A program made the position numbers and the translations under genes. From assembly GCA_003021015.1 (NCBI GenBank), contig PXRK01000067.1:62001-126000 (forward strand): DNA of 64,000 nt, given 5' to 3'. This document shows positions 27,846 to 62,818 of the stretch, in pieces. This DNA comes from Halobacteriales archaeon QS_4_66_20 (lineage in GTDB: Archaea > Halobacteriota > Halobacteria > Halobacteriales > Haloarculaceae). The notes beneath the pieces are model-generated. The model saw only the letters and a program-made list of their open reading frames with translations. It was not told the origin of the DNA and did no database searches. Position 1 is the stretch's first letter, and every line of letters starts with the position of its first letter.

Positions 27846-27861
27846 ATACACCCGGACGTGA
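27846..27861 (+). repeat. Solitary 16-nt palindromic-element left end
   Basis: ATACACCCGGACGTGA, identical to the left end of the 9601 element, lies 31 nt after the aglM-like stop codon, without a right partner. Confidence 0.55.
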
Positions 27862-27932
27862 CTCTATAATGCGACGCGTCAACCAGGCAGGTTCGGCCAA
27901 CAGTTAAGTTCGCCTCACGAGTCCTCCAAAGC

Positions 27933-28898
27933 ATGACAGACAGCCACAACGCTCTCGTTCATCACTCGATCTGGGGCACCCACTGGATTCCCGCTGGGGA
28001 CCTCGAAGCCGCAATTACGGAGCGCCTCCCGGAGGTCCAGCTCGACGTCGCGCGGACCCCCAGCGAGTCGGCCACCCTGATCGAAGATGCCGAAATTCTG
28101 CTGTCGTCGTTTGCCGAGCCCTCGCTACTCGACCGAGCGAAGAACCTGGAGTGGATCCAGGCGATGAGCGCCGGCGTCGACACACTCGACCTCGACGACC
28201 TGCGCACGCGGGACGTACTGCTGACTAGCGCCGCCGGCGCCCACGCACAGCCCATTGCCGAGCAGACCCTCGGGTACATGCTCACCTTCGAGCGCCGCCT
28301 CGACGACGCCATCGAGATGCGCCGGTCCGGCTCCTGGGAGCGATTCACCGGCGGCGAACTCGCCGGGAAAACACTGGGAATCGTCGGCCTCGGCGAGATC
28401 GGCCGCCGCACCGCGACCTTTGCCGACGCCATCGGCATGGACGTCGTCGGCAGCAAGCGCGACACTGATGTCGAGATTCCGGGCGTCGACCGCATCCACC
28501 CCCCAGACGAACTCGAATCGGTCCTCGTGGAATCCGACTACCTGCTCGTCGCGTGCCCGCTGACCGAGGAGACGCGCGGCCTGATCGGACGGATCGAACT
28601 CGGGGTGCTGCCCGACCACGCGGTGCTGCTCAACGTCGCCCGCGGCGAGGTCGTCGAGCAGGACGCGCTCGTGAGTGCACTGCAGTGGGGCGTGATCAGG
28701 GGCGCGGCGCTGGACGTGTTCGCACAGGAACCGCTGCCCGCCGACTCGCCACTGTGGGACCTCTCGAACGTGCTCCTCACGCCGCACAACGCTGGCGTAT
28801 CGCCCCAGCTGCCCGACCGGACGGCCGAGATTTTCGCCGACAACTACGAAGCTTACGCGGCTGGCGACCTCGATGCTCTGCGAAATCGGGTGCTGTGA
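27933..28898 (+). CDS. D-2-hydroxyacid dehydrogenase
   Basis: A 321-residue NAD(P)-dependent oxidoreductase. The dinucleotide loop is GIVGLGEIGRR (about 148-158). Catalytic residues follow the family pattern: Arg in NVARGEVV, Glu in FAQEPLP and His in LTPHNAG. The N-terminal catalytic domain includes EWIQAMSAGVDTLD. Substrate cannot be assigned (glycerate, lactate and phosphoglycerate dehydrogenases share the fold). The last base of its TGA is the first base of a palindromic element that fills the gap to the next gene. Confidence 0.88.
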   Translation: MTDSHNALVHHSIWGTHWIPAGDLEAAITERLPEVQLDVARTPSESATLIEDAEILLSSFAEPSLLDRAKNLEWIQAMSAGVDTLDLDDLRTRDVLLTSAAGAHAQPIAEQTLGYMLTFERRLDDAIEMRRSGSWERFTGGELAGKTLGIVGLGEIGRRTATFADAIGMDVVGSKRDTDVEIPGVDRIHPPDELESVLVESDYLLVACPLTEETRGLIGRIELGVLPDHAVLLNVARGEVVEQDALVSALQWGVIRGAALDVFAQEPLPADSPLWDLSNVLLTPHNAGVSPQLPDRTAEIFADNYEAYAAGDLDALRNRVL

Positions 28899-28990
28899 TA
28901 CGGTCGTTCGTGATTCGTTATCTACGAGTATCGACCGTGAGACCCCTGAGTTGTGTCGAGATGGCGTACCCGAATCACGTCCGGGTGTAT
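28898..28990 (-). repeat. Family-B1 palindromic element, 93 bp, filling a convergent gene gap
   Basis: Starts ATACGGTCGTTCGTGA on the last base of the dehydrogenase stop and ends TCACGTCCGGGTGTAT one base before the ferritin-like stop codon. The interior is the inverse of the 9601 element, shortened. The left end belongs to a different end subtype, so the two ends pair only partly. Confidence 0.8.
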
Positions 28991-48210: not shown

Positions 48211-48261
48211 TACTGCCGGACGTGATTCCGTTACTACCCGGATAGTCACGTCCGGCAGTAT
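48210..48261 (+). repeat. Minimal family-B4 palindrome, 52 bp, starting on a stop codon
   Basis: Perfect 16-bp ends ATACTGCCGGACGTGA / TCACGTCCGGCAGTAT separated by only 20 nt. Its first base is the last base of the upstream TGA. It looks like a deleted form of the outer element at 57702 and would form a strong hairpin at the mRNA 3' end. Confidence 0.85.
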
Positions 48262-48750: not shown

Positions 48751-49848
48751 ATGGTGCTGGAACAGGTTGGCACGGGTGGGGACCTCCTCGCGTCGAGCGT
48801 CGTTCTCCTGCTGTTTCTGCTGGTCCCGCTCGTCGTCGGGCTGGGGATGGTCCACGAGGGGGTCAAACAGTTCCGGATCAGACAGCGCGTCCGCGATACG
48901 CCGACCGAGACGGCGGATGCAGTCGCCGTCGGGCGAACGGAGGTCTCGGGCGTCGCCCGCCCCGCAGAGCAGACCTGTCGGGCGCCGTTCACGGACGAGG
49001 AGTGTCTCTACGTGCAGTTACTGTCGGACGTGAGTACGTGGAGATTTCCACCCCGGAACCGTGCTGAAACGTGTGAATCAACCGGTTTGCGTGTCTTGCC
49101 ATTCCACAGAGTCACGTCCGACAGTAAGTGGAAGATCTCCGAGCGATCCGCTGACGCTGACGGGGGGTGGGAGCTGCTGGATCTCGGGGTGTCCGTCTCG
49201 CCGTTCTACGTCGAGGACGAGACCGGCCGGGTGCTGGTCGACCCGACGCGCGGGGCCGTGAGCAACCCCGTCGTCATGGACGAGAGCTACGGGGTCGAGG
49301 TGCGGCCGGAGCACGCGACCACGACCGTCGTCGAGGCCGGCCAGGAGCCGCCCGAACGGATCGCCGCCTTCCTCCGCGACGGTCGGGAGGTGGCCGTCGA
49401 GCCCGTCGACACCATCGACCTCGTGGAGAACGCGGATCTGACTGGCCGCGGCGACTCGGCCGACCCGGCGACGGCGACCGACCCGATTGCGGCGGCCGAG
49501 TCTGGAACAGGAGATTTGGCGGCGTCTGCGGGTGGGTTCGATCGGTTCCTGGCCGACGAGGTGCCGGTCACGGCCCACCGCGATCGGAAGTACGAACAGC
49601 AGGTGGTGCCCGTCGGCTCGTCGGTGTACGTGTTCGGCAACGCGACGCCGCGTTCGGACGCGTCGGGGACCGGCGGGGAGCGACTCGCGATCGGTCCGGA
49701 CCCGTCGACGGATCTGTTTCTCGTCTCCACCGCTGGCGAGGCGGAGCTGTTGCCCCAGTTCGAGCGGTCGACGCGGAGGCTCATCGCTCTCGGCCTCCTG
49801 CTCAGTGCTCCCGCAGTCGGCGTGATCGCGTCCATCCTGGTCGCGTGA
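48751..49848 (+). CDS. GIDE-like membrane protein carrying a translated repeat insertion
   Basis: A 365-residue protein with membrane helices near both ends (about 11-32 and 342-363). The middle resembles the archaeal counterpart of the GIDE domain (PF12483): CRAPFTDEECLYVQL, then SPFYVEDETGRVLVDPTRG and YEQQVVPVGSSVYVFG. Between residues 90 and 126 the frame runs straight through a family-B3 palindromic element (SDVSTWRFPPRNRAE...), where relatives have a short segment like VEEYRSSGKNS before KWK. The protein is therefore altered in the loop joining two strands. Function of archaeal GIDE-like proteins is unknown. Confidence 0.75.
   Translation: MVLEQVGTGGDLLASSVVLLLFLLVPLVVGLGMVHEGVKQFRIRQRVRDTPTETADAVAVGRTEVSGVARPAEQTCRAPFTDEECLYVQLLSDVSTWRFPPRNRAETCESTGLRVLPFHRVTSDSKWKISERSADADGGWELLDLGVSVSPFYVEDETGRVLVDPTRGAVSNPVVMDESYGVEVRPEHATTTVVEAGQEPPERIAAFLRDGREVAVEPVDTIDLVENADLTGRGDSADPATATDPIAAAESGTGDLAASAGGFDRFLADEVPVTAHRDRKYEQQVVPVGSSVYVFGNATPRSDASGTGGERLAIGPDPSTDLFLVSTAGEAELLPQFERSTRRLIALGLLLSAPAVGVIASILVA
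49018..49127 (+). repeat. Family-B3 palindromic element, 110 bp, inside a coding sequence
   Basis: Perfect 16-bp ends TTACTGTCGGACGTGA / TCACGTCCGACAGTAA. The interior (GTACGTGGAGATTTCCACCC ... CCGGTTTGCGTGTCTTGCCA) matches the intergenic copy at 61421 closely. The reading frame of the GIDE-like gene stays open throughout. Confidence 0.88.
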
Positions 49849-49987: not shown

Positions 49988-51172
49988 ATGGTGGCAGCGA
50001 GCGCAGTGCTCACGCTGGTGGTGGCGGGGCTGGCGAGCCTGTTCATGGCGTGGGCCATCGGCGCCGGGTCGTCGGGGTCGACGCCGTTCGCTCCCGCAGT
50101 CGGTGCGAACGCAATCTCGATCATGCGGGCGGGCTTCCTGGTCGGGATTCTCGGCCTGCTCGGGGCCGTCCTGCAGGGCGCCAACGTCACGGAGGCCGTC
50201 GGGTCGGAGCTGGTCATCGGCCAGTCGCTGTCGGCGACGGCGGCGACGCTCGCGCTGCTGATCGCCGCCACGCTCGTAGCCATCGGCATCTTCACCGGCT
50301 ACCCGATCGCGACCGCCTTCACCGTCACCGGCGCGGTGGTCGGCGTCGGGCTGGCGATGGGCGGCGACCCCGCGTGGGCGAACTACCGCCAGATCACGGC
50401 GCTGTGGATCGCGACGCCGTTCGTCGGCGGCGGGGTCGCGTACGCGACAGCCCGCCTGCTCCGGGGCGACCGGCTGGCACAGACGGTGGCGATTCCGCTG
50501 CTGGGCGGCGTCGTCGGACTTGTCCTCGCGAACGTGCAGTTCGTCTTTTTCGCCCCCGGCGACGAACAGGCCTCGATCGCGCAGGCGACCGTCCAGCGGC
50601 TCGGCGGGGGGACGGTGACGTACGCGGTCGCGACGTTGCTGGTCGCCGGCGCGGTCGCGGGGCTGCTGGCCCACCGCACCAGGGTCGACCCCGAGCGGGC
50701 CCAGCAGCGGTTCCTGCTGAGTCTCGGAGCGCTGGTCGCGTTCTCCGCCGGCGGCAGCCAGGTCGGCCTCGCGATCGGGCCGCTCGTGCCGCTGCTCGGC
50801 GGGTTCGACATCCCGCTGGTCGCAGTGTTGCTGGGCGGCGGCCTCGGCCTCCTGGTGGGCTCCTGGACGGGCGCGCCCCGCATGATCAAGGCGCTGTCCC
50901 AGGACTACTCGGCGCTGGGCCCGAACCGCTCCATCGCGGCGCTGATCCCCTCGTTTGCCATCGCCCAGACCGCCGTGTTCTTCGGGATTCCCGTCTCGTT
51001 CAACGAAATCATCGTCTCCGCGATCATCGGCAGCGGCTACGCAGCCAGCGGCGAGGGCGGCGAGGTCAGCGGCGCGAAGATGGGCTACACCGTGCTGGCG
51101 TGGGTCGCCTCGCTCGCCGGCGCGCTCGCGATCGGCTACGGCGGCTTCCTCGCCGTCGACTCGCTGCTGTGA
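49988..51172 (+). CDS. Inorganic phosphate permease (PiT/PHO4 family)
   Basis: A 394-residue multi-pass permease. The inverted family repeats are seen as APAVGANAISIMRAGFLVG near the N-terminus and FNEIIVSAIIGSGYAA near the C-terminus; PiT proteins carry GANDVANA-type motifs in these places, here altered to GANAIS and SFNEII. Ten or more helices. It probably imports phosphate (or sulfate) with Na+ or H+. The 49849-49987 gap before it holds imperfect GCTGGCCGCGTGAGC repeats only. A family-A fragment follows its stop. Confidence 0.85.
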   Translation: MVAASAVLTLVVAGLASLFMAWAIGAGSSGSTPFAPAVGANAISIMRAGFLVGILGLLGAVLQGANVTEAVGSELVIGQSLSATAATLALLIAATLVAIGIFTGYPIATAFTVTGAVVGVGLAMGGDPAWANYRQITALWIATPFVGGGVAYATARLLRGDRLAQTVAIPLLGGVVGLVLANVQFVFFAPGDEQASIAQATVQRLGGGTVTYAVATLLVAGAVAGLLAHRTRVDPERAQQRFLLSLGALVAFSAGGSQVGLAIGPLVPLLGGFDIPLVAVLLGGGLGLLVGSWTGAPRMIKALSQDYSALGPNRSIAALIPSFAIAQTAVFFGIPVSFNEIIVSAIIGSGYAASGEGGEVSGAKMGYTVLAWVASLAGALAIGYGGFLAVDSLL

Positions 51173-60999: not shown

Positions 61000-61392
61000 A
61001 TGGCCGGCGATCCGTCGTTCGCAATCCCCCAGCGTCCGGAGCGGACCTACCCCTACAGCGGCGGCGTCGAGTACGAGGGCGAGACCGTCTTCAGGCTCGT
61101 CCCGGCGGCGGATCGCACCGACGCCGACCTCGACGACCTCGTCCTGACAGTCCTTGAGAGCGGTCCGTACCGCTACGGCGACTTCCTTAACCTCCCGATG
61201 CCGCTGTATCTCGTCCGCGACGAGGAGACCCGCGACGTGTTCCGGCTCTCGATCCGCAACGGCGAAATCCGGCTGCACGTCCTCCCCGACACCGAATCGG
61301 CCGGCCTGCGGGCGATCTACGACCGGATCGCCGACCGGTCGGACGGGGACTGGCGGGTTGCCTGTGAGACTGTGGAGTCTGAAAAGAGCTGA
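61000..61392 (+). CDS. Conserved haloarchaeal protein of unknown function
   Basis: A 130-residue protein starting MAGDPSFAIPQRPERTYPYS with an in-frame GTG one codon earlier. It has two alternating alpha-beta stretches (EYEGETVFRLVPAADRTDAD and YLVRDEETRDVFRLSIRNGE) and an acidic C-terminus. I see no motif for an enzyme. It lies 203 nt upstream of the HMG-CoA reductase gene on the same strand, with a palindromic element between them. Confidence 0.55.
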   Translation: MAGDPSFAIPQRPERTYPYSGGVEYEGETVFRLVPAADRTDADLDDLVLTVLESGPYRYGDFLNLPMPLYLVRDEETRDVFRLSIRNGEIRLHVLPDTESAGLRAIYDRIADRSDGDWRVACETVESEKS

Positions 61393-61420
61393 CGTGACAG
61401 TACACTCTCTGCCAGGACTC

Positions 61421-61530
61421 ATACTGTCGGACGTGAGTACGTGGAGATTTTCACCGCGGAACCGTGCTGAAATGTGTGAATACGCCGGTTTGCGTATCTT
61501 GCCATTCCACAGAGTCACGTCCGGGTGTAT
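61421..61530 (+). repeat. Family-B3 palindromic element, 110 bp
   Basis: Left end ATACTGTCGGACGTGA, right end TCACGTCCGGGTGTAT, so the two ends belong to different subtypes and pair imperfectly. The interior matches the element inside the GIDE-like gene at 49018. It lies between the 61000 gene and the HMG-CoA reductase gene, 64 nt before the latter's ATG. Confidence 0.85.
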
Positions 61531-61594
61531 ATTCCCGTACCGACCGCGACGGTCGTCCGGAGCGCTTACGGGGGCCGGCAGCCATCGCACAGTC

Positions 61595-62818
61595 ATGAGC
61601 GATCCGACGGCGGACGCGACAGCCCTCGCCGGGCGGGTACAGGACGGCGAGCTCCGACTGTACGAACTCGACGACTACGCCGACGCCGAGACGGCGGCGG
61701 CGGCCCGCCGCGAGTTCGTCGAGCGCGAGACTGGCGCAAGCCTCGACAGCGTCGGCGAGTACACGTTCGCGGCCGAAAGCGCAGAGCCGAACATCGAGAA
61801 CATGATCGGCGGCGCACAGCTTCCGATGGGCGTCGCCGGCCCGGTCACCGTCGACGGCGGCGCCGCGGCGGGCGAGCACTACCTCCCGCTGGCGACGACC
61901 GAGGGCGCGCTGGTCGCCAGCGTCAACCGCGGCCTGGGCACCATCGAGGCCGCCGGCGGCGCAACGGCGCGCGTGACCGACTCCGGGATGACCCGCGCGC
62001 CCGTCTTCCGGGTGGCGGGCGTCGCCGAGGCGGAGACGGTCGTCGAGTGGGTCGCCGACAACCGCGAGCGCCTCCGGGAAGCAGCCGAATCGACGACCAG
62101 CCACGGCGAACTCCTCGACGTGGACCCCTACGTCGTCGGGGACAACGTCTTCCTGCGGTTCGTCTACGACACCAAGGACGCGATGGGGATGAACATGGCG
62201 ACCATCGCAACACGGGAGGCCGCCGCGGTGATCGAGGCCGAGACGCCGGCGGAGATGGTGGCGCTGTCGGGCAACCTCTGCTCGGACAAGAAGCCGGCGG
62301 CGATCAACGCCGTCGAGGGCCGCGGTCGGACGGTCACCGCCGACGTCGTCCTCCCCCGCGACCTCGTCAACGAGCGGCTCGACACCACGCCGGAGGCGAT
62401 GGCAGAGGGCAACACCCGCAAGAATCTCGTGGGCAGCGCCAAGGCTGCCAGCCTCGGGTTCAACGCCCACGCCGCCAACACGGTCGCGGCGGCGTTTCTC
62501 GCGACCGGTCAGGACGCCGCCCAGGTCGTCGAAGGGGCCAACGCCATCACGACGATGGACGCCCGCGAGGCGGGGCTGTACGCGAGCGTCTCGCTGGCCG
62601 CGCTGGAACTGGGCACCGTCGGCGGCGGCACCGGGCTGGCGACCCAGGGGGAGGCCCTGGAGATTCTCGGCCTGGGTGGCGGCGGCGACCCGCCGGGTGC
62701 GAACGCCGACGCGTTCGCGGAAGTGATCGCCACCGGGGCGCTCGCCGGCGAACTCTCCCTCGTGGCCGCGTTCTGCTCGCGCCACCTCGCGAGCGCCCAC
62801 GAGGAACTCGGCCGGTAA
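61595..62818 (+). CDS. hmgA: Hydroxymethylglutaryl-CoA reductase (NADPH)
   Basis: A 407-residue class I HMG-CoA reductase, the rate-limiting enzyme for the mevalonate pathway to archaeal isoprenoid lipids. Signatures: ENMIGGAQLPMGVAGP, the DAMGMNMAT cofactor loop, SGNLCSDKKPAAINAVEGRG with catalytic Lys, and GTVGGGTGLATQ. The catalytic His is in SRHLASAHEELGR at the C-terminus. This is the classic target of mevinolin in haloarchaea. The ATG at 61595 begins MSDPTADATALAGR; a longer frame through the palindromic element upstream is rejected. Confidence 0.95.
   Translation: MSDPTADATALAGRVQDGELRLYELDDYADAETAAAARREFVERETGASLDSVGEYTFAAESAEPNIENMIGGAQLPMGVAGPVTVDGGAAAGEHYLPLATTEGALVASVNRGLGTIEAAGGATARVTDSGMTRAPVFRVAGVAEAETVVEWVADNRERLREAAESTTSHGELLDVDPYVVGDNVFLRFVYDTKDAMGMNMATIATREAAAVIEAETPAEMVALSGNLCSDKKPAAINAVEGRGRTVTADVVLPRDLVNERLDTTPEAMAEGNTRKNLVGSAKAASLGFNAHAANTVAAAFLATGQDAAQVVEGANAITTMDAREAGLYASVSLAALELGTVGGGTGLATQGEALEILGLGGGGDPPGANADAFAEVIATGALAGELSLVAAFCSRHLASAHEELGR

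Follow-up and report, generated by a model that had tools for sequence, protein, structure and literature searches.

A MITE-like element inserted in frame within a GIDE-like membrane protein gene of a haloarchaeon

Introduction

Prokaryotic MITEs are short, carry no transposase gene, end in terminal inverted repeats, create target duplications of fixed length, lie dispersed in many copies, are mobile among close relatives and have a partner transposon with matching ends. Those of Haloquadratum walsbyi have been described along with other transposase-free repeats (portions of PMC3119063). In-frame fusions of MITEs with genes are not considered unusual, and the palindromic elements of Rickettsia are singled out for the frequency of theirs (excerpts of PMC10969869); the same excerpts summarize the work of Ogata (2000, 2002), in which these elements lie in frame in many genes with the peptide kept. 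Enterobacterial RU-type repeats form 24 gene-fusion loci, situated at C-terminal regions and, in the sections of PMC2759123 that treat them, never within conserved domains of superfamily proteins. In the open-licence papers searched, we found no in-frame MITE insertion from an archaeon.

Here we analyze a 108-bp element in a haloarchaeal gene. Like prokaryotic MITEs, it has no transposase gene and terminal inverted repeats (15 bp), a 3-bp target duplication seen in 30 of 53 copies as well as by comparison of the window copy with its empty site in siblings, and a dispersed, mobile distribution, being present in 3 of 18 genomes with the site empty in two siblings. Its many copies recall Haloquadratum walsbyi and other prokaryotic MITEs and are mostly extragenic here. 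Unlike known prokaryotic MITEs, the present sequence family was seen only in three genomes (the host G000 and its siblings G106 and G107), and no partner transposon with matching ends was found for it; its 3-bp duplications set it apart from the Haloquadratum SMRs, which have inverted ends without target duplication. With Rickettsia palindromic elements, as these excerpts portray them, it shares a palindromic build, a length within about 100-150 bp and an in-frame position in a protein gene, but only one of 53 copies is read through, with no sign of coding constraint. Similar to RU-type repeats, it is a small mobile repeat in frame with a gene, whereas its insertion splits a conserved block.

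Results

A 108-bp element within a GIDE-like gene

The window, the whole 64,000-nucleotide stretch of DNA analyzed, belongs to contig C67 of G000 (86 contigs, 2.89 Mb, 89% complete). The locus comprises the following features:

48751..49848, plus strand: GIDE-like membrane protein gene (open frame, codon scores, Pfam PF12483, start position)
49019..49126, plus strand: MITE-like element of family B, 108 bp, read in its frame 2 (same-length copies elsewhere; missing from empty sites)
49019..49033, plus strand: left terminal inverted repeat TACTGTCGGACGTGA, 15 bp, perfect
49112..49126, minus strand: right terminal inverted repeat, 15 bp, perfect
49016..49018, no strand: target-site duplication AGT, left copy (one AGT at the G106 and G107 empty sites)
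49127..49129, no strand: target-site duplication AGT, right copy (empty-site comparison)

Running from ATG 48751 to TGA 49848, the gene specifies 365 aa as found and 328 aa minus the insert. In a profile search, its product matched Pfam PF12483 (GIDE) with 41.7 bits against a cut-off of 23.6, in agreement with the name given in the preliminary description, and 20 of 22 aligned relatives were positive for this profile at E 0.001. Codon scores are gene-like on both flanks of the insert (0.49 and 0.62), and the start codon is kept in both siblings. Two further points of that description hold, namely that a repeat with perfect inverted ends lies inside the coding sequence and that the frame stays open through it, the 365-aa ORF being uninterrupted. 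Its dimensions had been overstated, at 110 bp (49018-49127) with 16-bp ends, because one duplication base per side was included: pair 16 consists of the T of the left AGT and the A of the right AGT. The ends are indeed perfect but 15 bp long, the element measures 108 bp, and the insert amounts to 37 residues (90-126 of the product) rather than about 36.

Elements of this type have TACTGYCGGACGTGA as terminal ends. With 44 DNA matches in the genome, and 19 end-like sites in the window where 0.76 are expected, the element is far beyond chance. In the message, it is predicted to fold into a hairpin (-51.1 kcal/mol, with z = -4.7), which may hinder translation.

Empty sites in sibling genomes

Near-identical orthologues occur in two genomes of the same genus (G107:C39 and G106:C49). 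Both show the empty site CTCTACGTGC-AGT-GGAAGATC, and the window reads AGT-(108 bp)-AGT. Net insertion relative to the siblings is 108 + 3 = 111 bp, or 37 codons, with zero host bases lost. By this sum, insertion of an intact copy preserves any frame and, given the single AGT of the siblings, no frame repair was needed. The preliminary description had instead proposed that the frame was restored through loss of host sequence, with a VEEYRSSGKNS-like family segment missing. The empty sites of both siblings rule out such repair, and the supposedly missing segment, WKISERSADADGG, follows immediately after the insert; the idea had arisen because 110 bp were counted and WKISERSADADGG was not recognized as the counterpart of that stretch.

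Relatives were gathered from 29 loci (27 other genomes and the two siblings), all 29 with a matching ORF at E < 1e-3. After the short L058 and L059 were dropped, 27 were aligned (25 other-genome loci and the two siblings), and none of them carries the 37 inserted residues. This orthologue alignment had been suggested earlier as the check that could overturn the proposed donation of protein sequence by the repeat; the proposal stands at the DNA level, where in-frame codons were added, and goes no further.

Signs of weak constraint on the host gene

The insert falls inside the family consensus PFTDxECLxxxYxVxE and splits a conserved block, the insertion point lying between the near-invariant C118 and the invariant W136 (alignment A1, 22 sequences; numbering of row 1). 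Such a position is easier to reconcile with a failing gene than with a new part of the protein. Profile searches found no solved structure matching the GIDE-like family profile. The loop structure prediction that had been suggested was run; the single-sequence AlphaFold model reached a mean pLDDT of 39.5, too poor for placing the insert.

Both sibling orthologues are altered. In G106, one base is deleted and the 3' part of the gene is gone; in G107, a 150-bp in-frame deletion leaves a 275-aa frame open, although both assemblies are incomplete and the defects may partly be assembly errors. Codon changes polarized with G106 gave one silent and four replacing changes on the G000 branch and three silent and one replacing on the G107 branch. 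For the neighboring gene (49988-51172), the silent:replacing counts are 8:1 and 10:2, respectively. The GIDE-like gene differs from this neighbor on the G000 branch (Fisher p = 0.023), while the comparison of its G000 and G107 branches (p = 0.21) and that of the whole G000-G107 pair (7 silent, 5 replacing) with the neighbor (p = 0.11) are non-significant. Small as they are, these counts give signs of weak constraint on the gene in all three sibling genomes. As one sibling copy is broken and the other carries an in-frame deletion, the gene looks dispensable in this species cluster.

We regard a recent ordinary MITE insertion into a weakly constrained gene, with the frame open by arithmetic and chance, as the very probable explanation. 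Several observations count against parts of it: the AGT duplicated in the window departs from the TNA seen at all 29 other clean duplications, no autonomous element with these ends came to light, two of the three codon-change comparisons are non-significant, the sibling defects may partly be assembly errors, and the frame has stayed open, which a tolerated protein would need. We think it unlikely, though worth weighing, that translation of the 37 MITE-encoded residues gives a working GIDE-like protein with an extra loop or internal segment. The fully open frame with gene-like codon usage on both flanks, the C-terminal GIDE block that is still there, a helix predicted at each end in a low-confidence model and the open frame of the G107 orthologue would all fit such a protein. 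Against it, the insert sits within the C118-W136 block rather than in a variable linker, more changes on the inserted branch are replacing than silent, and a hairpin of -51 kcal/mol would be in the message.

Element families and their copies

Two further copies in the window belong to family B and to its sister family A, which also measures 108 bp and has ends of the same type:

61422..61529, plus strand: another family-B copy, intergenic, with a TACACCC-type right end (interior recurs)
48211..48260, plus strand: 50-bp short copy of family A, just upstream of the gene (longer copy at this place in the G106 locus)

The former confirms the earlier remark that the same interior is intergenic near 61421. 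An ORF (61154-62818) runs from within the preceding gene through this intergenic element into the next gene; its likely true start is ATG 61595, so that automated annotation might join the element to the gene by mistake. The 50-bp copy looks like an internal deletion of a longer family-A copy, since the copy at the same place in G106 is longer, with another repeat with TAGTGATTATTGTGA ends nested inside.

Family B yielded 44 DNA matches in G000, 26 in G107 and 12 in G106, the only positive genomes among 18 of the genus. Searches of these three genomes with family A gave 44, 29 and 14 matches, respectively. A scan of GTDB species genomes, from which records close to the window's own genome were possibly excluded, detected paired ends in 11 stretches, all from the Halobacteriales archaeon MAGs SW_10_66_29 and SW_7_65_23, which by their matching coordinates appear to be G107 and G106, respectively; plasmids, viral contigs and Rfam contained no match to the element.

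For comparison across copies, we compiled 53 distinct near-full-length copies of both families, leaving out duplicates and those with <80 aligned bases or <20 bases of flank. They are partly non-independent, as some look like orthologous pairs (L014/L083, L013/L085). Length is 108 bp in 47, 107 bp in four and 109 bp in two. The 3-bp flanks are identical in 30 copies and different in 23; the 30 clean duplications read TGA (15), TCA (10), TAA (4) and AGT (1), the last being the window copy.

Copies in genes and coding potential

Whether copies sit in genes was assessed heuristically by codon scores and a stop check on both flanks. Both flanks were open and gene-like in one frame for two of the 53 copies, the window's (L135) and L079; in L079, the element has a stop in that frame, and a gene ending there on the opposite strand gives the better score. 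By this test, gene read-through is confined to the window copy (1/53). Several further copies score well on both sides, with stops nearby, and none of 22 TACASCC-type elements passed. ORFs take up 73% of the window's bases and 59% of its TNA sites, yet a single copy reads through, which marks a strong depletion of the family from genes. Among the 30 copies with clean duplications, six (L065, L112, L115, L077, L080 and L093) lie exactly on a gene's TGA stop codon, whereas such stops make up 3.3% (52/1,561) of the window's TNA sites that were tested. Insertions there recreate the stop and are harmless, and the excess may reflect only which sites are harmless.

To examine the element's own coding potential, we took the 24 family-B copies that measure 108 bp, of which 23 have an open frame 2 in forward and 22 in reverse orientation. 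The silent fraction of frame 2 among distinct variants is 0.26 (0.26 expected) forward and 0.27 (0.30 expected) reverse, and stop-making variants number two in each orientation, where 3.8 and 4.3 are expected. Differences are small in all frames, the largest silent excess being in reverse frame 1 (0.32 against 0.26). Shuffled sequences mostly have zero to two open frames, and three occurred in 412 of 5,000; the element has as many open frames as such shuffles would give. There is thus no good sign in these sequences of selection for coding, the slight stop deficit of frame 2 being the sole hint towards it.

These data bear on a process as in Rickettsia, whereby a palindromic element is selected for in-frame insertion into many genes and its peptide kept. 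Length plus duplication as a multiple of three and the frequently open frame 2 would suit it, but the lone read-through copy, the empty count among TACASCC-type elements and the lack of a silent excess led us to reject such a coding element; the stop-making variants and an open-frame count at shuffle level speak against it as well, and we consider this process extremely improbable. An equally slight chance attaches to the element being ancestral at this locus and cleanly excised from both siblings, given its absence from the aligned relatives, the single AGT without footprint in both siblings and the window copy's standing as nearest to the family-B consensus among 24 copies (two differences, at adjacent sites), a closeness expected of a young insertion.

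Search for a mobilizing partner

Profile searches for PF13340 were negative in all three genomes (G000, G106 and G107). Five PF01609 loci were inspected, and none has such a pair of ends; the single PF01609 gene found in G000 (L156) is of IS5 type and is not bounded by the element's ends. Duplication of TNA is typical of some IS5-family groups (ISL2/IS1031-type) and likewise occurs here in 29 of 30 clean cases (TGA, TCA and TAA), with AGT in the window copy. We left the element out of the IS5 family because no IS5-type transposase was found between these ends. Twenty stretches around single-ended sites were mostly partnerless and contained no autonomous element, and 100 of 171 sites with TACASCC ends revealed no autonomous partner.

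One 1,143-bp end pair in the window (27847-28989) was rejected as an autonomous element, as it flanks a D-2-hydroxyacid dehydrogenase gene (27933-28898) instead; the ends bracketing this gene are inward-facing TACACCCGGACGTGA. Similar inward-facing ends surround one small gene in L140 (528-1137), which we take to be cold-shock-like. Overall, G000 is heavily burdened with small elements for which no transposase partner is visible: this incomplete 2.9-Mb genome has 171 TACASCC-type end sites and, when one mismatch is tolerated, 175 of the TACTGYC type.

Discussion

With its empty and filled forms both at hand, the locus gives a clean record of a MITE entering a haloarchaeal gene. It also illustrates how 108 bp of element plus 3 bp of duplicated target leave any reading frame intact. 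In the recent-insertion scenario, a non-autonomous MITE-like element of 108 bp entered the gene after the lineage split from G106 and G107, presumably moved by a transposase acting in trans, and duplicated the three bases AGT. Every intact-copy insertion would keep the frame by the 111-bp sum. The window copy is stop-free in two of its six phase and orientation combinations, so that roughly one in three in-gene hits would leave the frame open. With a conserved block split and the gene seemingly dispensable, the insertion was probably tolerated since the protein no longer matters much, a view that takes in a putative loss of protein function and, from small codon counts, relaxed selection.

Given that the other 52 copies lack gene read-through and that the gene is apparently on its way out, an uninterrupted frame across a repeat says little in favor of donated protein sequence. 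If the product were made and working, the locus would be a noteworthy archaeal example of residues contributed by a repeat within a conserved block.
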